64,000 nucleotides of DNA, from assembly GCA_027078545.1 (NCBI GenBank), contig JALWXN010000004.1, positions 640,737 to 704,736 on the forward strand. The letters are read 5' to 3'. This document shows, one piece after another, positions 38,447 to 46,706 of this stretch (position 1 is the stretch's first letter; each line of letters opens with the position of its first letter). This DNA is from Nitrososphaeria archaeon. GTDB lineage: Archaea > Thermoproteota > Nitrososphaeria > Geothermarchaeales > JDFR-13. Below the pieces are notes generated by a model. The model worked only from the letters and a program-made list of their open reading frames with translations. It did no database searches and was not told where the DNA came from. The position numbers were made by a program, and so were the translations under genes.

Positions 38447-40261
38447 TTAAACCGGTACCTCCTGAGGGACACCCTCCTCGCTCCAGCCCCTGAGCCTATA
38501 GTATGTCTTAAGCATCGACTCGAACTCCTCTAGGCTAAGGGACTTAGCGCCGCCCCTAAGGGTCTTGCCCGGCTCCTTGAATAGCCTCTTGGGGAGGTAG
38601 TCCTCCTTCGGGCTCATACCGGTAGCGAGGTTGAACCTCCTAATCACGGTGTGGATATCGTTGGCTATCTCTGTGAGGCTCTCCCTCGTATATCCGTAGC
38701 CGGTTAGGCTGTTTAGGATATCCACTGTGAAGTCCCATTCATAGACGAATCTGCCGAAGCGGCATAGGATCATGCTGTCGTGGATCGAGAAGAGGTTCTC
38801 CACATCGACTAGGAACCTGACCTTCTCAGGGCCTGTATCATCCTTGTTTAGTATCCCCTTCATCTCGTAGGCATAGCTCGTCGTCCTCAGGTGGTCAGCA
38901 CCCCTGGTTGAGGTGGCGTATGAGAGGGCCATTCCCTTCAGGCTCCTCGGGTCGTAGGCGGGTGGGCTTAGGCCCTTCACATGTATGGCGACGTCCTCCA
39001 AGCCATACTTCTTGGCCAGGTGCTTCACACCCTCCCCAATGTCGTACCCTATACCCCGCCTCTCCATTGTGAGCTGGAAGAGGTAGTATACGCTGTCCAC
39101 GTCGCCGAACCTTACTGGGCGGTCCAGCTTGACCAGTCCCTTCTCATATGCGTAGATGACTAGTGATATCAGGCTCCCCATCTCTATGGTGTCGACCCCA
39201 TACCTATCGGCTAGGAGGTTGAGGGCTATCACGGGCTTCATATCGTCCAGCTCGTTAAGGACTCCGAAGGCGAATATAGTCTCATACTCAGGGCCCTTCG
39301 TCACTATCCCCTTGTACTGCCCATCCTCCTCTATAACCGAGATCTTGCCACAGGAGTACATACAGTTCCAGCAGGCGACGCTCGACTTGTAGAAGTTCTC
39401 CCTCAGGGCCTCTGGATCCAGTGCCTCGTAGACACGGGTCTCCACATACTCCCAGTAGCGTGAGGGTATTGCGGAGTTGGCCTGTGTAGCTGAGAGGGTT
39501 ATAGGGGTCCCATACTTCCTATAGCTATTCACGCCTGACTTCAAGGGGTCCCCGATAGCCTTCTCGACAAACTTCTTGGCATTCCTCCTGACAGCCTCCT
39601 CGTCATAAACCCTTATGATGGGCCTGCCAGGGTTCCTTAGGACTATGGCCTTCAGGTTCTTACTACCCATTACAGCGCCGCCACCTGTCCTGCCGGCCTT
39701 GCTCTCCCTCATCCTAGTGCCGTGTCCATGGCTTATGGCGGCGAAGCGTATCAGCCTCTCACCGGCCGGGCCTATCTCCGCGACCTCGATATCCCTGCCG
39801 AGCTCCTCCATCAGCCTCTTCTCCGTCTCCTCCGTGTTGAGGCCCCAGAGATCGGAGGCATCCCTGATCTCCACGTTCTCCCCGTCGAGGTATAGGTAGA
39901 CAGGCTTCTCACTCCTACCATGGATGGCTAGACCCACGTATCCGAGCCAACGGAATACAGCTGGGAAGTTGCCCCCCATGATACTCTCTCCGAAGATCCC
40001 CGTGAGGGGGCTCTTGAAGAAGAAGCCTATCTTGGAGGCTAGGGGTAGCCACGTCCCTGTAGCAGGGCCTGTCGAGACGAACAGGATGTTCTCAGGGGAT
40101 AGGGGGTCTACCCTGGGGTCTAGGTTCTCAAATAGGTAGTGGGCGGCCAGGCCCTTCCCACCTATCCACCTCTTAAGGATCTTCTGGTCCAGCTCCTCCT
40201 CAACAATCTTCCCCCTGGTAAGGTCTATCTTAACCAGTTTTCCACCGTAGCCCCTATCCAT
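38447..40261 (-). CDS. Tungsten-dependent aldehyde ferredoxin oxidoreductase (AOR family)
   Basis: Oxidises aldehydes to acids with ferredoxin as acceptor, using a tungstopterin and one 4Fe-4S cluster. With ATG 40261 the protein has 604 residues, the classic AOR size; the open frame runs 25 codons further but MDRGYGGKLVKIDLTRG is the family start. Iron-sulfur ligands are C297, C300 and C304 (CWNCMYSC), with the fourth in MILCRFGR. Pterin-site segments include GGNFPAVFRWLGY and KAGRTGGGAVMGSKNLKAI. It is divergent from nosZ. The pterin is made in part by moaD-moaE in this window. Confidence 0.92.
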   Translation of the reverse strand: MDRGYGGKLVKIDLTRGKIVEEELDQKILKRWIGGKGLAAHYLFENLDPRVDPLSPENILFVSTGPATGTWLPLASKIGFFFKSPLTGIFGESIMGGNFPAVFRWLGYVGLAIHGRSEKPVYLYLDGENVEIRDASDLWGLNTEETEKRLMEELGRDIEVAEIGPAGERLIRFAAISHGHGTRMRESKAGRTGGGAVMGSKNLKAIVLRNPGRPIIRVYDEEAVRRNAKKFVEKAIGDPLKSGVNSYRKYGTPITLSATQANSAIPSRYWEYVETRVYEALDPEALRENFYKSSVACWNCMYSCGKISVIEEDGQYKGIVTKGPEYETIFAFGVLNELDDMKPVIALNLLADRYGVDTIEMGSLISLVIYAYEKGLVKLDRPVRFGDVDSVYYLFQLTMERRGIGYDIGEGVKHLAKKYGLEDVAIHVKGLSPPAYDPRSLKGMALSYATSTRGADHLRTTSYAYEMKGILNKDDTGPEKVRFLVDVENLFSIHDSMILCRFGRFVYEWDFTVDILNSLTGYGYTRESLTEIANDIHTVIRRFNLATGMSPKEDYLPKRLFKEPGKTLRGGAKSLSLEEFESMLKTYYRLRGWSEEGVPQEVPV

Positions 40262-40380
40262 GTAACCGTGAATTGATTTGAACCCCGATAAATACCGAGG
40301 TTTAAACCCCTCCCGTTGAGGCATGGGCCTACGCATTTACGAGGCGATACACGTATTTTTTGTATAGACGTGGCCACCCG

Positions 40381-40485: not shown

Positions 40486-42552
40486 ATGGCGGCTAGGAGG
40501 AGGGGCGCCGGTAAGGGCGTCTCGAGAAGGGACTTCATAACACTAGCTGGTGGGGCTGCTGTCGGAGCTGCTATTGGCTATACCGCCTTCAAGCTTACAC
40601 AGCCAGCGCCTGCTGCTGAGCTACCCTACCAGGAGATCATCCAGGCACGTGGCCTAACCCCGGAGGATGTAGAGGCTGCGCTGAAGACCTACCTTCCTGG
40701 TGGGAGACAGGACGAGTTTATATTGTTTGCCAGCGGTGGACATTCGGGACAGGTGCTGGTCTTCGGAATACCCAGTATGAAGCTCTACAGAGTGATAGGT
40801 GTATTCACTCCAGAGCCTTGGCAGGGATATGGATACGGCGCAAAGGAGACTATGGAGGTTCTTAGGGGTGGCAACAATGGTGTGAGGGAGCTTACATGGG
40901 GCGATGTACACCACCCAGAGGTCAGCAGGACGAACGGCGAGTTCGATGGCGAGTGGCTATTCGTCAACGACAAGGCTAATGGGAGAGTAGCGGTGATAAG
41001 CCTGAAGGACTTCGAGACGAAGCAGATCGTGAAGATACCTAATATGCAGAGCCAGCATGGAGGTGCATTCGTTACTCCGAATACGGAGTACGTCGTCGTC
41101 GGTTCACAGTATCCGACTCCTTGGGATCCTGACAAGGGATATATTCCTGGGGAGACTTATGTAGAGCTGGATCCAAAGGATCCCGACACGCTAAAGAACA
41201 ACTTCAGAGGGCTAATAGCATTTCTCAAGTTTGACAGAGAGCGTGGAAGGATCGATCTTAGCAGGAGCTTCGAGATTGAGCTTCCACCATATTCACAGGA
41301 TCTAGTTGTGGTTGGCTGGGGGGCCTCAGATGGAATGGCTTTTATCAACAGCTTCAACACTGAGATGGCGGTGGGTGATGTTCTTAATGGGGTTCCAGCA
41401 TTGGAGGTAGGATCAGCAGAGTATGACTACGACTTCCTCCACATTGTATTCTGGAAGAAGGCTGAGCAGCTTATTCAGCAGGGAAGATATAGAGAGCTAA
41501 ATGGAGTCAAGGTTATTAGTCTGGAGGATGCAGTGAGGGAAGGGATTCTCTACTTCGCCCCAGAGCCTAAGAGCCCACACGGTGTTGACATTGCTCCCAG
41601 AGGAGATTATATAGTTGTCAGTGGTAAGCTGGAGCCATCAGCCACGATTTATAGTGCTGATGCGATAAAGAACGCTGTACAGGCTGGAGACTTCGAGGGT
41701 AGGGACGACTTCGGAGTGCCCATCCTGAAGTTTGACAAGGTTAAGGTGGCCCAGGTTGAGCTCGGCCTAGGGCCGCTGCACACAGAGTTCGACGACAAGG
41801 GCTATGCATATACTAGCCTCTTCATAGATAATGCGATAGCCAAGTGGACACTAGGCCCGCCATACTTCGAGGGCGACGAGGCATGGAAGGTTGTGGACAA
41901 GGTGACTATACACTACAACATCGGCCACCTAGCGGCGCCTGAGAGTAACAGCCCATCCCCTAAGGGTAAGTACGTCGTGGCCCTCAACAAGTGGAGCATA
42001 GACAGGTTCCCAGTCCTAGGCCCATTGAAGCCGCAGAACTTCCAGCTTATAGACATAACTGGGGAGAAAATGAAGGTTCTCCTAGACTTCCCGATAGGCA
42101 TCGGTGAGCCGCACTACGCCAAGATCATCGATATAAACAAGATCAAGGCACTAGAGGTCTATCCTCCTGGAACTGATCCACTGACATTTGAGCCGCATCC
42201 ACACGCCATACAGCCTGGTGAGGAGAGGATTGAGAGGACCACGATTGATGGTAGGCCAGCTACAGTAGTCTACGGCACCTTGATCAGGAGTACAGTAACA
42301 CCAGACTTTATCAGGGTTCGGCAGGGAGACTTGGTGAGAATGTATCTAACCAATGTCGAGACTACGCCAGACGCTACCCACGGATTCTCGATATGTGAGT
42401 ATAACATCAACGCTAGTATAGAGCCGGGCGAGACGGTGACGATAGAGTTCGTAGCTGATAAGCCAGGTGTTTATGCCTTCTACTGTACAGAGTTCTGTTC
42501 ACCGCTCCACCTAGAGATGGCTGGCTGGCTAGTCATCGAGCCCAGGGGGTAG
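40486..42552 (+). CDS. nosZ: Nitrous oxide reductase NosZ
   Basis: The terminal oxidoreductase that turns N2O into N2 outside the membrane. A 688-residue protein with a Tat signal (SRRDFITLAGG, R14-R15) followed by a beta-propeller with all seven CuZ histidines: H142 and H143 (DVHHPE), H191 (QSQHGG), H319, H365 (KSPHGV), H432 and H481. The C-terminal cupredoxin domain has the complete CuA site H632, C667, C671, H675 and M678 (CTEFCSPLHLEM). The Tat signal resembles clade I rather than the Sec-type clade II. The coding sequence uses more AGA and is AT-richer than flanking genes. It leads an operon with nosL, a membrane protein, nosD, nosF and nosY; no nosR is present. Confidence 0.96.
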   Translation: MAARRRGAGKGVSRRDFITLAGGAAVGAAIGYTAFKLTQPAPAAELPYQEIIQARGLTPEDVEAALKTYLPGGRQDEFILFASGGHSGQVLVFGIPSMKLYRVIGVFTPEPWQGYGYGAKETMEVLRGGNNGVRELTWGDVHHPEVSRTNGEFDGEWLFVNDKANGRVAVISLKDFETKQIVKIPNMQSQHGGAFVTPNTEYVVVGSQYPTPWDPDKGYIPGETYVELDPKDPDTLKNNFRGLIAFLKFDRERGRIDLSRSFEIELPPYSQDLVVVGWGASDGMAFINSFNTEMAVGDVLNGVPALEVGSAEYDYDFLHIVFWKKAEQLIQQGRYRELNGVKVISLEDAVREGILYFAPEPKSPHGVDIAPRGDYIVVSGKLEPSATIYSADAIKNAVQAGDFEGRDDFGVPILKFDKVKVAQVELGLGPLHTEFDDKGYAYTSLFIDNAIAKWTLGPPYFEGDEAWKVVDKVTIHYNIGHLAAPESNSPSPKGKYVVALNKWSIDRFPVLGPLKPQNFQLIDITGEKMKVLLDFPIGIGEPHYAKIIDINKIKALEVYPPGTDPLTFEPHPHAIQPGEERIERTTIDGRPATVVYGTLIRSTVTPDFIRVRQGDLVRMYLTNVETTPDATHGFSICEYNINASIEPGETVTIEFVADKPGVYAFYCTEFCSPLHLEMAGWLVIEPRG

Positions 42553-42555
42553 AGG

Positions 42556-43062
42556 ATGAAGAAGTACCTTATCCCAATCCTTTTTATATTTGCCCTTATA
42601 GTCATTGGTCTAAACCTCTCCAACCTGTTTATGCGTGGGGAGTCGATCCCCAAGATATATCTGGATCAGGACAGATGTGCCCAGTGTGGGATGGTGATTA
42701 GCAGGGCGGAGTACGCCGCCCTGGCATACAGGGTAGATACTGGGGAATGGGTGAAGTTCGACGATATCGGATGCCTGCTTAAATATATGATCGAGAATGG
42801 TGGGACCTCCAACTTTCGCGACATATATGTGGCTGACTACAACACTGGTGAGTTGATAGGGGCTGTGGACGCATTCTTTGTCAGGGCCTCCGCCGAGGAT
42901 GTATCCACCCCTATGTCAAGCGGAATAGTGGCGTTCAAATCCCTGGGTGATGCGGAGGCCTTCTCCAACAGGTATGGAGGCACGGTATACACCTTCCAGG
43001 AGCTATACTCCTGGGCCGCCTCCAACCCGGGCGTGATTTATCAGAAGGAGATGTCGATGTGA
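42556..43062 (+). CDS. nosL: NosL copper chaperone, membrane-anchored form
   Basis: Delivers copper(I) for assembly of NosZ centres. A 168-residue protein with an N-terminal membrane helix (residues about 4-25) and the NosL metal motif CAQCGM (C41, C44, M46), then the FDDIGCLLKYM segment and a second ferredoxin-like repeat. Bacterial NosL is usually a lipoprotein with a lipobox cysteine; none is seen here, so the helix probably acts as the anchor. Three bases separate it from nosZ, and GGGGGTAGAGG serves as ribosome binding site. Confidence 0.9.
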   Translation: MKKYLIPILFIFALIVIGLNLSNLFMRGESIPKIYLDQDRCAQCGMVISRAEYAALAYRVDTGEWVKFDDIGCLLKYMIENGGTSNFRDIYVADYNTGELIGAVDAFFVRASAEDVSTPMSSGIVAFKSLGDAEAFSNRYGGTVYTFQELYSWAASNPGVIYQKEMSM

Positions 43063-43066
43063 GGTG
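43061..43066 (+). promoter_or_regulatory. Shine-Dalgarno site that favours a TTG start
   Basis: GAGGTG overlaps the end of nosL and is six bases before TTG 43073, the same spacing as at nosZ. It argues that the next gene begins at TTG 43073 rather than the in-frame GTG 43064, which lies inside the site. Confidence 0.5.
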
Positions 43067-43072
43067 GTCATA

Positions 43073-43624
43073 TTGGATAGGATGATGATCCTCAAGATCG
43101 TGCTGGTCGTGGCGCCACTCATAGCTATAGCCCTCCCGCTTTGGAGCCTACGTGTACACCCAGCTTTCATGGGTCAGAAGTGGCTGGACATCGATGTATG
43201 GGGATATGGGGCTGTAACAGGACCTTTAGATAGTCTAAACATTGCAAACCACTATGTAGGGCTTAAAGAGATCAGGCCTGAGGAGATGTTCGAGCTGAAG
43301 TTGCTACCCCTTCTATATCCCTTGATGGCGGTAGTGAACGGGCTTATACTCTTCGGGGATGAGGCGAAGTATAGGGTTGGGAAGTGGCTCGGCCTAGCCA
43401 CATTGATAGGTGTGGTTGCCTATTTCCAGTGGTGGCTATACAGATACGGACATGATATAGACCCTAAATTAGCTAGGATTGAGATAGACCCCTTCACACC
43501 GTATGTAACGGGCTACTACAAGATAGCCAACTTCGAGATCATAGCCTTCTTCAACATTGGCTACATCATCCTGCTCGTGAGCTACATCCTATCCCTCTAC
43601 CTCAGGAGGAGGGAGTATGGGTGA
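43073..43624 (+). CDS. Small membrane protein of the nos operon, family not recognised
   Basis: A 183-residue protein with about four hydrophobic helices: residues about 5-23, 78-96, 104-122 and 153-176. Extra-membrane segments include HPAFMGQKWLDIDVWGYG, the loop YRYGHDIDPKLARIEIDPF and NIANHYVG. Several His and Met residues (HPAFM, GHD) lie near the predicted membrane edges. It sits between nosL and nosD, with its stop overlapping the nosD start (TGATG). A part in copper handling, quinol electron supply or NosDFY function is inferred only from position. Clade II nos clusters carry a membrane gene called nosB next to nosZ, but I cannot confirm homology. Confidence 0.75.
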   Translation: MDRMMILKIVLVVAPLIAIALPLWSLRVHPAFMGQKWLDIDVWGYGAVTGPLDSLNIANHYVGLKEIRPEEMFELKLLPLLYPLMAVVNGLILFGDEAKYRVGKWLGLATLIGVVAYFQWWLYRYGHDIDPKLARIEIDPFTPYVTGYYKIANFEIIAFFNIGYIILLVSYILSLYLRRREYG

Positions 43625-45045
43625 TGACCAACATCCAGAGAACCCTCTCCATCCCAATACTCCTTTTTATCGCCCTTATCCTTGCTCAGCCCGTAGACGG
43701 GTTGGTGGGTAACTCCTCCATATACGATGATCTCGGGAATAGATACTCCTCCCTCGGGGAGGCTGTGAGGGAGGCATCCCCAGGCTCAACAATATATGTC
43801 GAGGGTGGTATCCATAGAGGCGGTATAGTCATCGATAAACCCCTAAGCTTAGTAGGTATAGACAGGCCAGTTCTCGACGGTGAGTATAGTGGTAGCGTTG
43901 TCACTATAGAGAACACTGAAAATGTCTCGATAACAGGCTTCAGGATTGAGAGGAGTGGACGGGTATACTCCACCGAGGACTCCGGGGTAAAGATCATCAA
44001 CTCCACAAGAGTATTTATACGGTACAATGTGTTCGACGACGTCTTCTTCGGGATACTGGTCAAGGATAGTAGGGGTGTCGAGATAGTAGGGAATAATATT
44101 ACTGGGATTGATGAGTACTATCTCTCCGACAGGATGCATGGTATCTACAACTGGTACTCCTACAACATATCGATTATAAACAATACCTTCCGCTATGTGA
44201 AGGACGGGGTCTATAACGACCATAACTATGACACGGTCATTGCTAACAACACATTCCGCTACGGCCGCTACGGTGTACACCTGATGTATAGCGATAGGTT
44301 CGTGATAGAGCGGAATGATATCTCTGGCTTCATAGCAGGGATGGCCCTGATGTATAGTGAGAATTTGACGATACGATATAACAAGATACATGGGAATAGG
44401 GTAGGTGGCATTGGTGAGGGCCTATTCATACCTGAGACCGACAACATATTGATCGAGCATAACTGGATAGTCGGGAATGTGGTGGGGATCAATATTAGGT
44501 ATACTCCATATACGCCCGGCAAATACTCTATTATACGGTTCAACGTGATAGCCTACAACTATGTGGGGCTCCATGTAGATACTGATAGCGAGGCGGAGGT
44601 CTATGGGAACGACTTCATAGAGAATGTCCAGGAGATTAGGTATATCGGCTATACCAAGAGCAGGATAAAGTGGTATAGCGAGGAGCTAAGGATAGGTAAC
44701 TACTGGTCCGGGGTCAAGGCCTTCGACTCCGATGGAGACGGCCTTGTCGATGTGCCCTATACCCTGGTCGACCCGCTATACCGTTTTATAAGGGAGCACC
44801 GTGAGCTGAGCGTATACTACCTCAGCCCTGTCTACGAGGTCCTCGATATCGTGTTTAAATACTCGTATGAGAGCCCCCTCCAGGGCCTGATAGAGGATCC
44901 ATACCCGTTGAGGGAGCCATACAATATTGATAGGCTAGACCTAACCATTTACATTGAGAACCTTCCATATACACTTGTGTTGACCCTGATACCCATGTAT
45001 ATCGTCTATAGAGGTGTATACCGTGCTAGAGGTAAGAGGGGTTAA
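43624..45045 (+). CDS. nosD: NosD, extracytoplasmic beta-helix maturation protein
   Basis: Works with NosFY in building the sulfide-containing CuZ cluster of NosZ. A 473-residue protein with a signal peptide (residues about 6-27) and a right-handed parallel beta-helix of repeated NosD/CASH-type turns (ISIINNTFRYVKDGVYND, VIANNTFRYGRYGVHLMYSD, NLTIRYNKIHGNRVGGIGEG). A DSDGDGLVD calcium-type loop follows near residue 368, and a hydrophobic C-terminal helix (LVLTLIPMYIVYRGVYR) suggests membrane anchoring. ATG 43624 overlaps the previous stop; a GTG three bases earlier is possible. Confidence 0.93.
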   Translation: MTNIQRTLSIPILLFIALILAQPVDGLVGNSSIYDDLGNRYSSLGEAVREASPGSTIYVEGGIHRGGIVIDKPLSLVGIDRPVLDGEYSGSVVTIENTENVSITGFRIERSGRVYSTEDSGVKIINSTRVFIRYNVFDDVFFGILVKDSRGVEIVGNNITGIDEYYLSDRMHGIYNWYSYNISIINNTFRYVKDGVYNDHNYDTVIANNTFRYGRYGVHLMYSDRFVIERNDISGFIAGMALMYSENLTIRYNKIHGNRVGGIGEGLFIPETDNILIEHNWIVGNVVGINIRYTPYTPGKYSIIRFNVIAYNYVGLHVDTDSEAEVYGNDFIENVQEIRYIGYTKSRIKWYSEELRIGNYWSGVKAFDSDGDGLVDVPYTLVDPLYRFIREHRELSVYYLSPVYEVLDIVFKYSYESPLQGLIEDPYPLREPYNIDRLDLTIYIENLPYTLVLTLIPMYIVYRGVYRARGKRG

Positions 45046-45898
45046 CAAGTTTTTCGGGGATTACCAGGTGTTGAAGGATATATCCTTCAGCCTCGGCCCT
45101 GGGGAGGCTGCTGTCCTCCTCGGGCGTAACGGGGCTGGGAAGACCACCCTCCTGAGATGTATAGCGGGTATCCTACGGTATGAGGGGGAGGTCCTTGTCG
45201 AGGGTATAGACATGGCTAGGGAGCCTATAGAGGCTAAGAAGAGGATCGGCTACCTCCCCCAGGTCCCCCCTGTCAGGAGCGACGTCACAGGGTATGAGCT
45301 CTTCAACATGTATACCGAGCTACACGGGATAGACCTCGACGCCGATGAATGGTTTGAGAGGTTCGCCCTCCACGACGCGATGGATTTATATATCGACGAG
45401 TATAGCGGGGGTATGAGGCAGAGGCTCTTCCTAATGATGACGATAGCCCACGACCCCAGCCTGGTTCTCATGGACGAGCCTATGAACAACCTGGACAGCC
45501 TGGGTAAGAAGCTCCTAATCGACATAATCAACGAGATGAAGGGGCGTGGCAAGAGCTTCCTAATAAGTGTCCACAGGGTCTCAGACTTCATAGCATATGC
45601 CGATGAGATCCTCGTGGTGGATGATGGGAGGCTCCTCTTCAAGGGCCCGGTCACCCGCCTATTCGAGGGCCTAGGGATATCCCGTATATTCATCTACGCC
45701 CCGGACGGGCTTGAGAGGAGGATGGTTGAGGAGGTAGGTGGGGAGAGGATAGGAGAGAATAGAGTAGTTGTCGAGGCGGAGAATATCCATGAGACCGTTA
45801 TCCGCCTCGTCGAGATGGGCGTGAGGAGCTTCTTCATCGAGGAGCCAGGTATCGACGTGATTATCAGGAGGCTGAGGAGGGATGAGGACGGTCTATAG
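45014..45898 (+). CDS. nosF: NosF, ABC transporter ATPase of the Nos maturation system
   Basis: The ATPase that drives NosY, thought to move a sulfur species for the CuZ cluster. 294 residues: Walker A GRNGAGKTT near residues 37-45, signature YSGGMRQRL near 131-139, Walker B LVLMDEP near 150-156 and a switch His in ISVHRVSD. GTG 45014 overlaps the nosD end by 32 bases; a GTG three codons later is an alternative. The C-terminal 70 residues form a small regulatory domain. Confidence 0.92.
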   Translation: MYTVLEVRGVNKFFGDYQVLKDISFSLGPGEAAVLLGRNGAGKTTLLRCIAGILRYEGEVLVEGIDMAREPIEAKKRIGYLPQVPPVRSDVTGYELFNMYTELHGIDLDADEWFERFALHDAMDLYIDEYSGGMRQRLFLMMTIAHDPSLVLMDEPMNNLDSLGKKLLIDIINEMKGRGKSFLISVHRVSDFIAYADEILVVDDGRLLFKGPVTRLFEGLGISRIFIYAPDGLERRMVEEVGGERIGENRVVVEAENIHETVIRLVEMGVRSFFIEEPGIDVIIRRLRRDEDGL

Positions 45899-46706
45899 CC
45901 TGGCCCGTGAAGAGTTTCTGAGCGGGCTTAGGAATAGATGGATACTTGTATACTCACTCTCATACCTACTCCTGGCGATAGCCATATCACCCTTCTCCCT
46001 GGCAGGGCTCAACATCCTGGGTATGAAGGCGGTTGGCAAGGTCCTATCCGCATTGATAAATATATCGCTATACCTAGTCCCCCTAATATCCCTGATAACC
46101 TCGACGGTCGCTATAGTGGGGGATAGGGAGACGAGATATCTTGAGTGGCTAATGTCCAACCCAGTCTCCGAGAGGGCCTACCTACTCGGCAAGTTTATAG
46201 GTCTCTTCCTATCGATAACTGTGGCCACCCTCCTAGGCTTCGGGGTTGCAAGCTGGTTCGTCATCCTATTCCTACCGCCGGAGGACGTGTCTAAATACTT
46301 CCTCCTAATCTCTGTCGCCCTACTACTATCAGCGGTATACGTGGCTATGGGGCTACTGATAAGCGTCCTGAGCAGGACACGCTACCACGCACTGGGCACA
46401 GGCTTCCTCATATGGTTCTTCACAGTCTTCGTCTTCGACCTATTCGTGATGAGCTTCCTACTAAGCCTCCTAAACGACCCACTACTCGCCTCCATAGCCG
46501 CTACACTCAACCCGATACAGGGTATAAGGCTCAACATGATCTCCGTCATAGATCCCGAGATGACCTTCCTAGGCTTCACAGGGATAGGTGAGCTGAGGGA
46601 GAATGTATGGCTCGTACTAGGGACTTCGCAGGCGGTGGTGATCGGCTACACAATCCTATTCGCAGGATTGGCATATCTACAGCTGAGGAGGCAGGACGTG
46701 ATATAG
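45882..46706 (+). CDS. nosY: NosY, ABC-2 type membrane permease of the Nos maturation system
   Basis: The membrane partner of NosF. 274 residues with six hydrophobic helices (about 18-38, 57-77, 105-130, 139-164, 174-200, 245-266) and the ABC-2 loop DRETRYLEWLMSNPVSERAYLLGKF near residues 80-104. The conserved late segment NPIQGIRLNMI near 208-218 is a NosY mark. ATG 45882 overlaps nosF by 17 bases. It is the last gene of the operon; the next gene starts 40 bases on with its own TATA-like GATATATGG. Confidence 0.92.
   Translation: MRTVYSLAREEFLSGLRNRWILVYSLSYLLLAIAISPFSLAGLNILGMKAVGKVLSALINISLYLVPLISLITSTVAIVGDRETRYLEWLMSNPVSERAYLLGKFIGLFLSITVATLLGFGVASWFVILFLPPEDVSKYFLLISVALLLSAVYVAMGLLISVLSRTRYHALGTGFLIWFFTVFVFDLFVMSFLLSLLNDPLLASIAATLNPIQGIRLNMISVIDPEMTFLGFTGIGELRENVWLVLGTSQAVVIGYTILFAGLAYLQLRRQDVI

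Follow-up and report, generated by a model that had tools for sequence, protein, structure and literature searches.

The closest described counterparts of the gene analysed here are the nosB genes that are a hallmark of clade II nos clusters. Their products have four or six transmembrane (TM) helices (PMC11388526) and share two conserved stretches, LNHYIGM and YGHN; fusions between NosB and NosL are also mentioned, and electron transport to NosZ is an assumed role for the protein (PMC9697520). Its function is elsewhere stated as unknown (PMC11096178, PMC11102522). According to the accounts of Hein 2017 in PMC9697520 and PMC11102522, nosB is needed for the respiration of the greenhouse gas N2O by Wolinella, which, in the passage of PMC11102522 that cites this work, is the sole species with a shown NosB requirement.

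The window analysed here, a stretch of 64,000 nucleotides from a Nitrososphaeria archaeon of the order Geothermarchaeales, carries on its + strand, at 40486-46706, an operon that Pfam and NCBIfam families allowed us to read as nosZ-nosL-X-nosD-nosF-nosY, where X is the gene analysed here. Its features, and those within nosB, are the following.

40486-42552, + strand: nosZ, clade II type TIGR04246 (NCBIfam, 768.9 bits; cut-off 625)
42556-43062, + strand: nosL, copper chaperone anchored in the membrane at its N-terminus (Pfam NosL, 62.6 bits)
43073-43624, + strand: nosB (open reading frame, motifs, family profile, AlphaFold2 model, dN/dS)
43136-43144, + strand: P-x-W (P25, L26, W27) at the predicted boundary of TM1 and strand 1; all 70 homologues have this P and W
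43244-43264, + strand: NosB motif 1, ANHYVGL, residues 61-67, in a predicted extracytoplasmic helix before TM2
43445-43456, + strand: NosB motif 2, YGHD, residues 128-131, at the predicted end of TM3; its His is replaceable in some relatives
43621-45045, + strand: nosD (TIGR04247, 303.8 bits; cut-off 300)
45014-45898, + strand: nosF, ABC ATPase (PF00005 and operon position)
45882-46706, + strand: nosY, ABC-2 permease (PF12679 and operon position)

A first-pass annotation of this DNA had described, between nosL and nosD, a gene for a 183-residue protein with four helices, and our analysis agrees on both points. The open reading frame starts with TTG at 43073, stops with TGA at 43622-43624, and encodes four hydrophobic TM helices; a GTG at 43064, in the same frame, would extend the protein to 186 residues, and it is this longer version that we use for residue numbering. 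The purine-rich GAGGTG about 7 nt 5' of the TTG overlaps the nosL stop (TGA, 43060-43062), and a possible nosD start, GTG at 43621, overlaps the nosB stop. The overlap with nosD proposed earlier is present, and, as was also proposed, the gene is part of the nos translation unit. Compared with its closest relative, from the same genus, the protein has 90% amino acid identity, with a dN of 0.059, a dS of 1.19, and a dN/dS of about 0.05, which indicates a real gene under purifying selection.

Two further characteristics of this region were observed. The product of nosZ has a Tat-like signal peptide (RRDF; 18.0 bits with the TAT signal model, cut-off 16.7), whereas a Sec signal is typical of clade II, to which its TIGR04246 type belongs. 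Just upstream of the operon, at 38447-40336 on the - strand, there is a gene for a tungsten-type aldehyde ferredoxin oxidoreductase.

The annotation had considered the protein to be unrecognised. Judged by its sequence, the gene at 43073-43624 is an archaeal nosB, from a family already known in bacteria: ANHYVGL and YGHD are the counterparts of LNHYIGM and YGHN, and it was the presence of both published motifs, together with the Gemmatimonadota and Bacteroidota homologues, that led us to file it as NosB. The NosB family profile matches the protein with an E value of 5.8e-48, its four TM helices agree with the number described for the family, and the gene neighbours clade II nosZ and nosD, with nosL between nosZ and nosB and with nosD directly after. 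In the plasmid search, the corresponding gene (X) was found in the orders nosZ-X-nosL-nosD in Hymenobacter and nosZ-X-nosD in Haloferax.

None of the Pfam and NCBIfam families matches the window protein at E <= 1, including models for CtaG, CopD, NosR, and other known transporters, and the sequence search of the PDB with the NosB profile gave no match. The scattered weak matches of the protein and its 70 relatives to DUF4131, MHYT, and other families were dismissed as chance. The earlier statement that the protein is not NosR, NosX, or a cytochrome by sequence is correct, and no relationship to an unrelated transporter emerged from these two libraries. Since neither library has a NosB model, nosB is missed by annotation; our 70-sequence alignment would support such a model and would end the "hypothetical" label on the gene. 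NosR and NosX of clade I systems resemble NosB in being accessory to NosZ and differ from it in sequence, with no match between them. NosR carries FMN and Fe-S domains, while NosB has none of these.

Like the clade II NosB of Wolinella, Gemmatimonas, Bacteroidota, and Bacillota, the archaeal protein has four TM helices and versions of both motifs, and its gene lies beside nosZ and nosD, is present in every sampled NosZ genome, and normally occurs as one copy per genome. The differences concern the archaeal motifs, which read NHYVGL and YGHD or YTHT, the sequence HPAFMGQKW in place of the bacterial APQYPEGL loop, and the gene order, which is Z-L-B-D-F-Y in 8 of the 12 archaeal loci, whereas bacteria have Z-B-L-D-F-Y or variants of it, with nosL preceding nosB in no bacterial locus of our set. 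One locus (G171, L033) has nosB directly after nosZ, nosL upstream of nosZ, and YLNT instead of YGHD as its second motif.

The distribution of NosB was determined in three surveys that were not seeded with its motifs. Among 300 genomes of the window's phylum, the nine with a NosZ over the cut-off were the same nine with a strong NosB, and among 41 close relatives the six NosZ genomes were the same six with NosB, the window's own genome being included in both counts. Of the 198 genomes in the Bacteroidota sample, 76 had NosB and 74 had NosZ, all 74 of the latter having both. Combining the three surveys, NosB was present in 88 of 88 NosZ genomes, so that the gene travels with nosZ in the archaea and in the Bacteroidota sample, the first of which the first-pass annotation had suggested looking for, and no wide occurrence apart from nos genes was seen. 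Two weak matches of the first survey (L010 and L012) were rejected because they were partial-length, within much longer reading frames of 508 and 308 aa that encode an MFS-like and another membrane protein.

Regarding the additional NosB of the Bacteroidota sample, the gene at L120 lies at a contig end and is followed by nosL-nosD-nosF-nosY. The other is an orphan nosB (L119:12954-13613, genome G308) on an 85 kb contig, in a genome where no NosZ was found; genes for a 4Fe-4S polyferredoxin and a regulator of the Rrf2 type are nearby, and it may be a remnant or reflect a nosZ-independent use. Only one NosB genome thus seems truly nosZ-free among those surveyed. A separate scan of named prokaryote genomes, this one seeded by the NosB motif, found at least 572 relatives, the best 80 of which were kept and belong to Bacteroidota, Ignavibacteriota, Gemmatimonadota, Planctomycetota, Bacillota, Calditrichota, Actinomycetota, and others. 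Every kept locus includes other nos genes, and those where nosZ is missing lie on short or truncated contigs.

The phylogenetic trees of both proteins point in the same direction. Ten archaeal proteins form one clade in the NosB tree (SH-aLRT 98), the same ten genomes group together in the NosZ tree (100/100), and the Haloferax pair falls outside this clade in both. These matching clades fit a joint inheritance of NosB and NosZ in the ten archaea.

Conservation within the family is concentrated outside the membrane helices. The mean frequency of the most common residue is 0.62-0.63 in the loop columns and 0.32-0.47 in the TM columns (permutation 0/10000). N59, H63, and G66 are invariant in the alignment of 70 homologues, and N62 and Y64 are conserved in 69 of the 70 sequences; H63 is near-universal, even in twelve homologues that were not picked by motif, and is replaced by Lys in Haloferax. 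The His of YGHD (H130) is found in 63 of 70 homologues and is absent in Bacilli, one archaeon, and several genomes of the Bacteroidota sample. The alignment has neither a conserved Cys nor an invariant His pair, and a cytochrome b or other heme membrane protein was discarded because the TM helices lack conserved His pairs. The first-pass annotation had drawn attention to His and Met residues near the membrane edges, in HPAFM and YGHD. Their positions are as described, but H32 and M36 of HPAFM vary in the family, with Asn in place of H32 in two congeners, and the only conserved ones are H63 and, to a lesser degree, H130.

The AlphaFold2 model of the window protein, obtained with its 70 relatives, has a pLDDT of 95.6 and a pTM of 0.87, and its predicted order of elements is TM1, two strands, a short helix with NHYVG, TM2, TM3, two strands, and TM4. 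A Gemmatimonadota NosB modelled from its own bacterial alignment shows the same arrangement (pLDDT 94.6). Both models were used as inputs for a fold search of the PDB with Foldseek. Nearly all of the 50 matches listed for the window model are claudin-superfamily entries (best E 2.7e-3, probability 0.96), comprising claudins, TARPs, LHFPL4, GSG1L, DUOXA1, and a designed claudin fold. For the Gemmatimonadota model, only claudin-superfamily entries are among the matches listed, 11 of them at E <= 1e-3 (best E 1.5e-4, probability 1.00), and the TM-score reaches 0.51 with claudin-3 and 0.54 with the designed claudin fold; TM-scores to claudin entries are in general modest, about 0.3-0.54.

In the prediction, NosB is built like a claudin, as a bundle of four helices whose loops 1 and 2 form an extracellular beta-sheet, and its elements follow in the same order, with strands and a short helix between TM1 and TM2 and further strands between TM3 and TM4. 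As in claudins, there would be no cofactor, and the P-x-W at the boundary of TM1 and strand 1 matches P28-M29-W30 of claudin-4 in both location and spacing. On the other hand, the claudin W-GLW-C-C signature of loop 1 is represented by the W within P-x-W and its cysteine pair is absent, and the gene belongs to a prokaryotic nos operon. Claudins have four plus one main strands, whereas the NosB models have two plus two. The comparison of the NosB profile with that of claudin-3/-4 gave no significant score (hhalign probability 1.1%), with P-x-W aligned on P-x-W, and there was no claudin model among the Pfam families listed for NosB. Given that no sequence homology is detectable, the link to claudins is at the level of the predicted fold only and may be convergent. 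In the part of the literature covered, we found no paper linking NosB to the claudin fold, and this likeness, as predicted, looks like a new element that a specialist would not expect.

The orientation of the protein can be deduced from its bacterial NosB-NosL fusions, found in Bacteroidota and Gemmatimonadota among others, whose NosB half is homologous to the archaeal protein, which is separate from NosL. In all 15 fusions (including those at L041, L050, L063, L081, L084, L092, L097, L098, and L102) a lipobox Cys lies between the two halves, and most have a predicted fifth hydrophobic helix. It follows that NosL lies outside and that the NosB half has its C-terminus inside, and consequently both conserved loops lie outside. 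NosB is thus predicted to have its N- and C-termini inside and an extracytoplasmic conserved face composed of the beta-sheet and the short NHYVG helix. The complete internal lipobox also suggests that the fusions could be substrates of signal peptidase II and be split by it, in which case mature NosB and NosL may be separate.

Taking these results together, we lean towards the interpretation that NosB, the archaeal nosB product, is a cofactor-free membrane subunit for the docking or maturation of NosZ, with a claudin-like arrangement. Through its outer face, it would keep NosZ at the membrane, probably together with the copper-loading machinery of NosL and NosDFY, and NosZ, so held, could be matured and take electrons from a separate Rieske/cytochrome b/cupredoxin chain. 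NosB would then be to NosZ what TARPs are to AMPA receptors, or what DUOXA1 is to DUOX1, rather than a redox carrier. More tentatively, NosB might be a prokaryotic claudin-fold family that serves a redox enzyme outside the cytoplasm as an auxiliary subunit, comparable to TARPs and DUOXA1 on animal receptors and oxidases; if true, archaea, bacteria, and animals would have this fold and helper role in common, by descent or convergence. Given a confidently predicted fold whose outer face is conserved and which shows no cofactor site, the role of NosB can be reduced to specific tests, such as its docking site on NosZ, NosD, or NosL and the copper state of NosZ after NosB loss.

Maturation or docking is favoured over the proposal that NosB is the missing quinol donor, in which NosB would bind quinol or a cofactor and pass electrons to the CuA of NosZ. 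This electron-path role, which we consider unlikely, agrees with the loss of N2O respiration in Wolinella nosB mutants, as related by the papers that cite that work, and with a function assumed in PMC9697520; moreover, the near-invariant H63, at the membrane surface, could still act chemically, and the orphan nosB without nosZ has a polyferredoxin gene nearby. However, NosB has no conserved Cys or invariant His pair, its TM helices are its least conserved part, and it remains constant while the donors vary, from a plastocyanin-family gene in Haloferax to a Rieske/cytochrome b/cupredoxin cluster in the window genome. In the latter, the genes for a cytochrome b, for a cupredoxin anchored in the membrane, and for a Rieske protein whose signal is Tat-like are side by side (L132, 5961-8397), making available a route from quinol through Rieske/cytochrome b and cupredoxin to NosZ without NosB as a carrier; this cupredoxin may serve NosZ. 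The window genome also has a cluster for CoxB, CoxA/CoxC, a plastocyanin-like protein, and SCO1 (L133, 6108-11432), and its count of CXXCH is not above that of the reversed-pattern control (33 versus 57), with no enrichment of c-type cytochromes.

A role in copper delivery, also raised by the first-pass annotation, has a similarly low probability in our estimation. NosB would take over Cu(I) from NosL and hand it to NosDFY or NosZ, as its adjacency to nosL (L-B-D in archaea, B-L-D in most bacteria) and its fusion to NosL in several bacterial phyla make conceivable, but NosB shows no evident copper site: it lacks any conserved Cys and any conserved cluster of Met and His, HPAFM varies even within the genus, and the lipobox in 15 of 15 fusions means that the mature proteins may be separate. 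Finally, the idea that the protein belongs to a non-NosB family found in archaeal nos operons by chance, for which its 22-31% identity to most bacterial members and the lack of a matching curated model could be invoked, is refuted by the profile and motifs and, in view of the operon position, co-occurrence, and same predicted fold, is extremely improbable.

With respect to the respiratory chain of this genome, the CoxB and CoxA/CoxC fusion genes that accompany SCO1 at L133 represent a heme-copper oxidase in a member of the Geothermarchaeales; Geothermarchaeota are given as having a bd oxidase only (PMC11459464).
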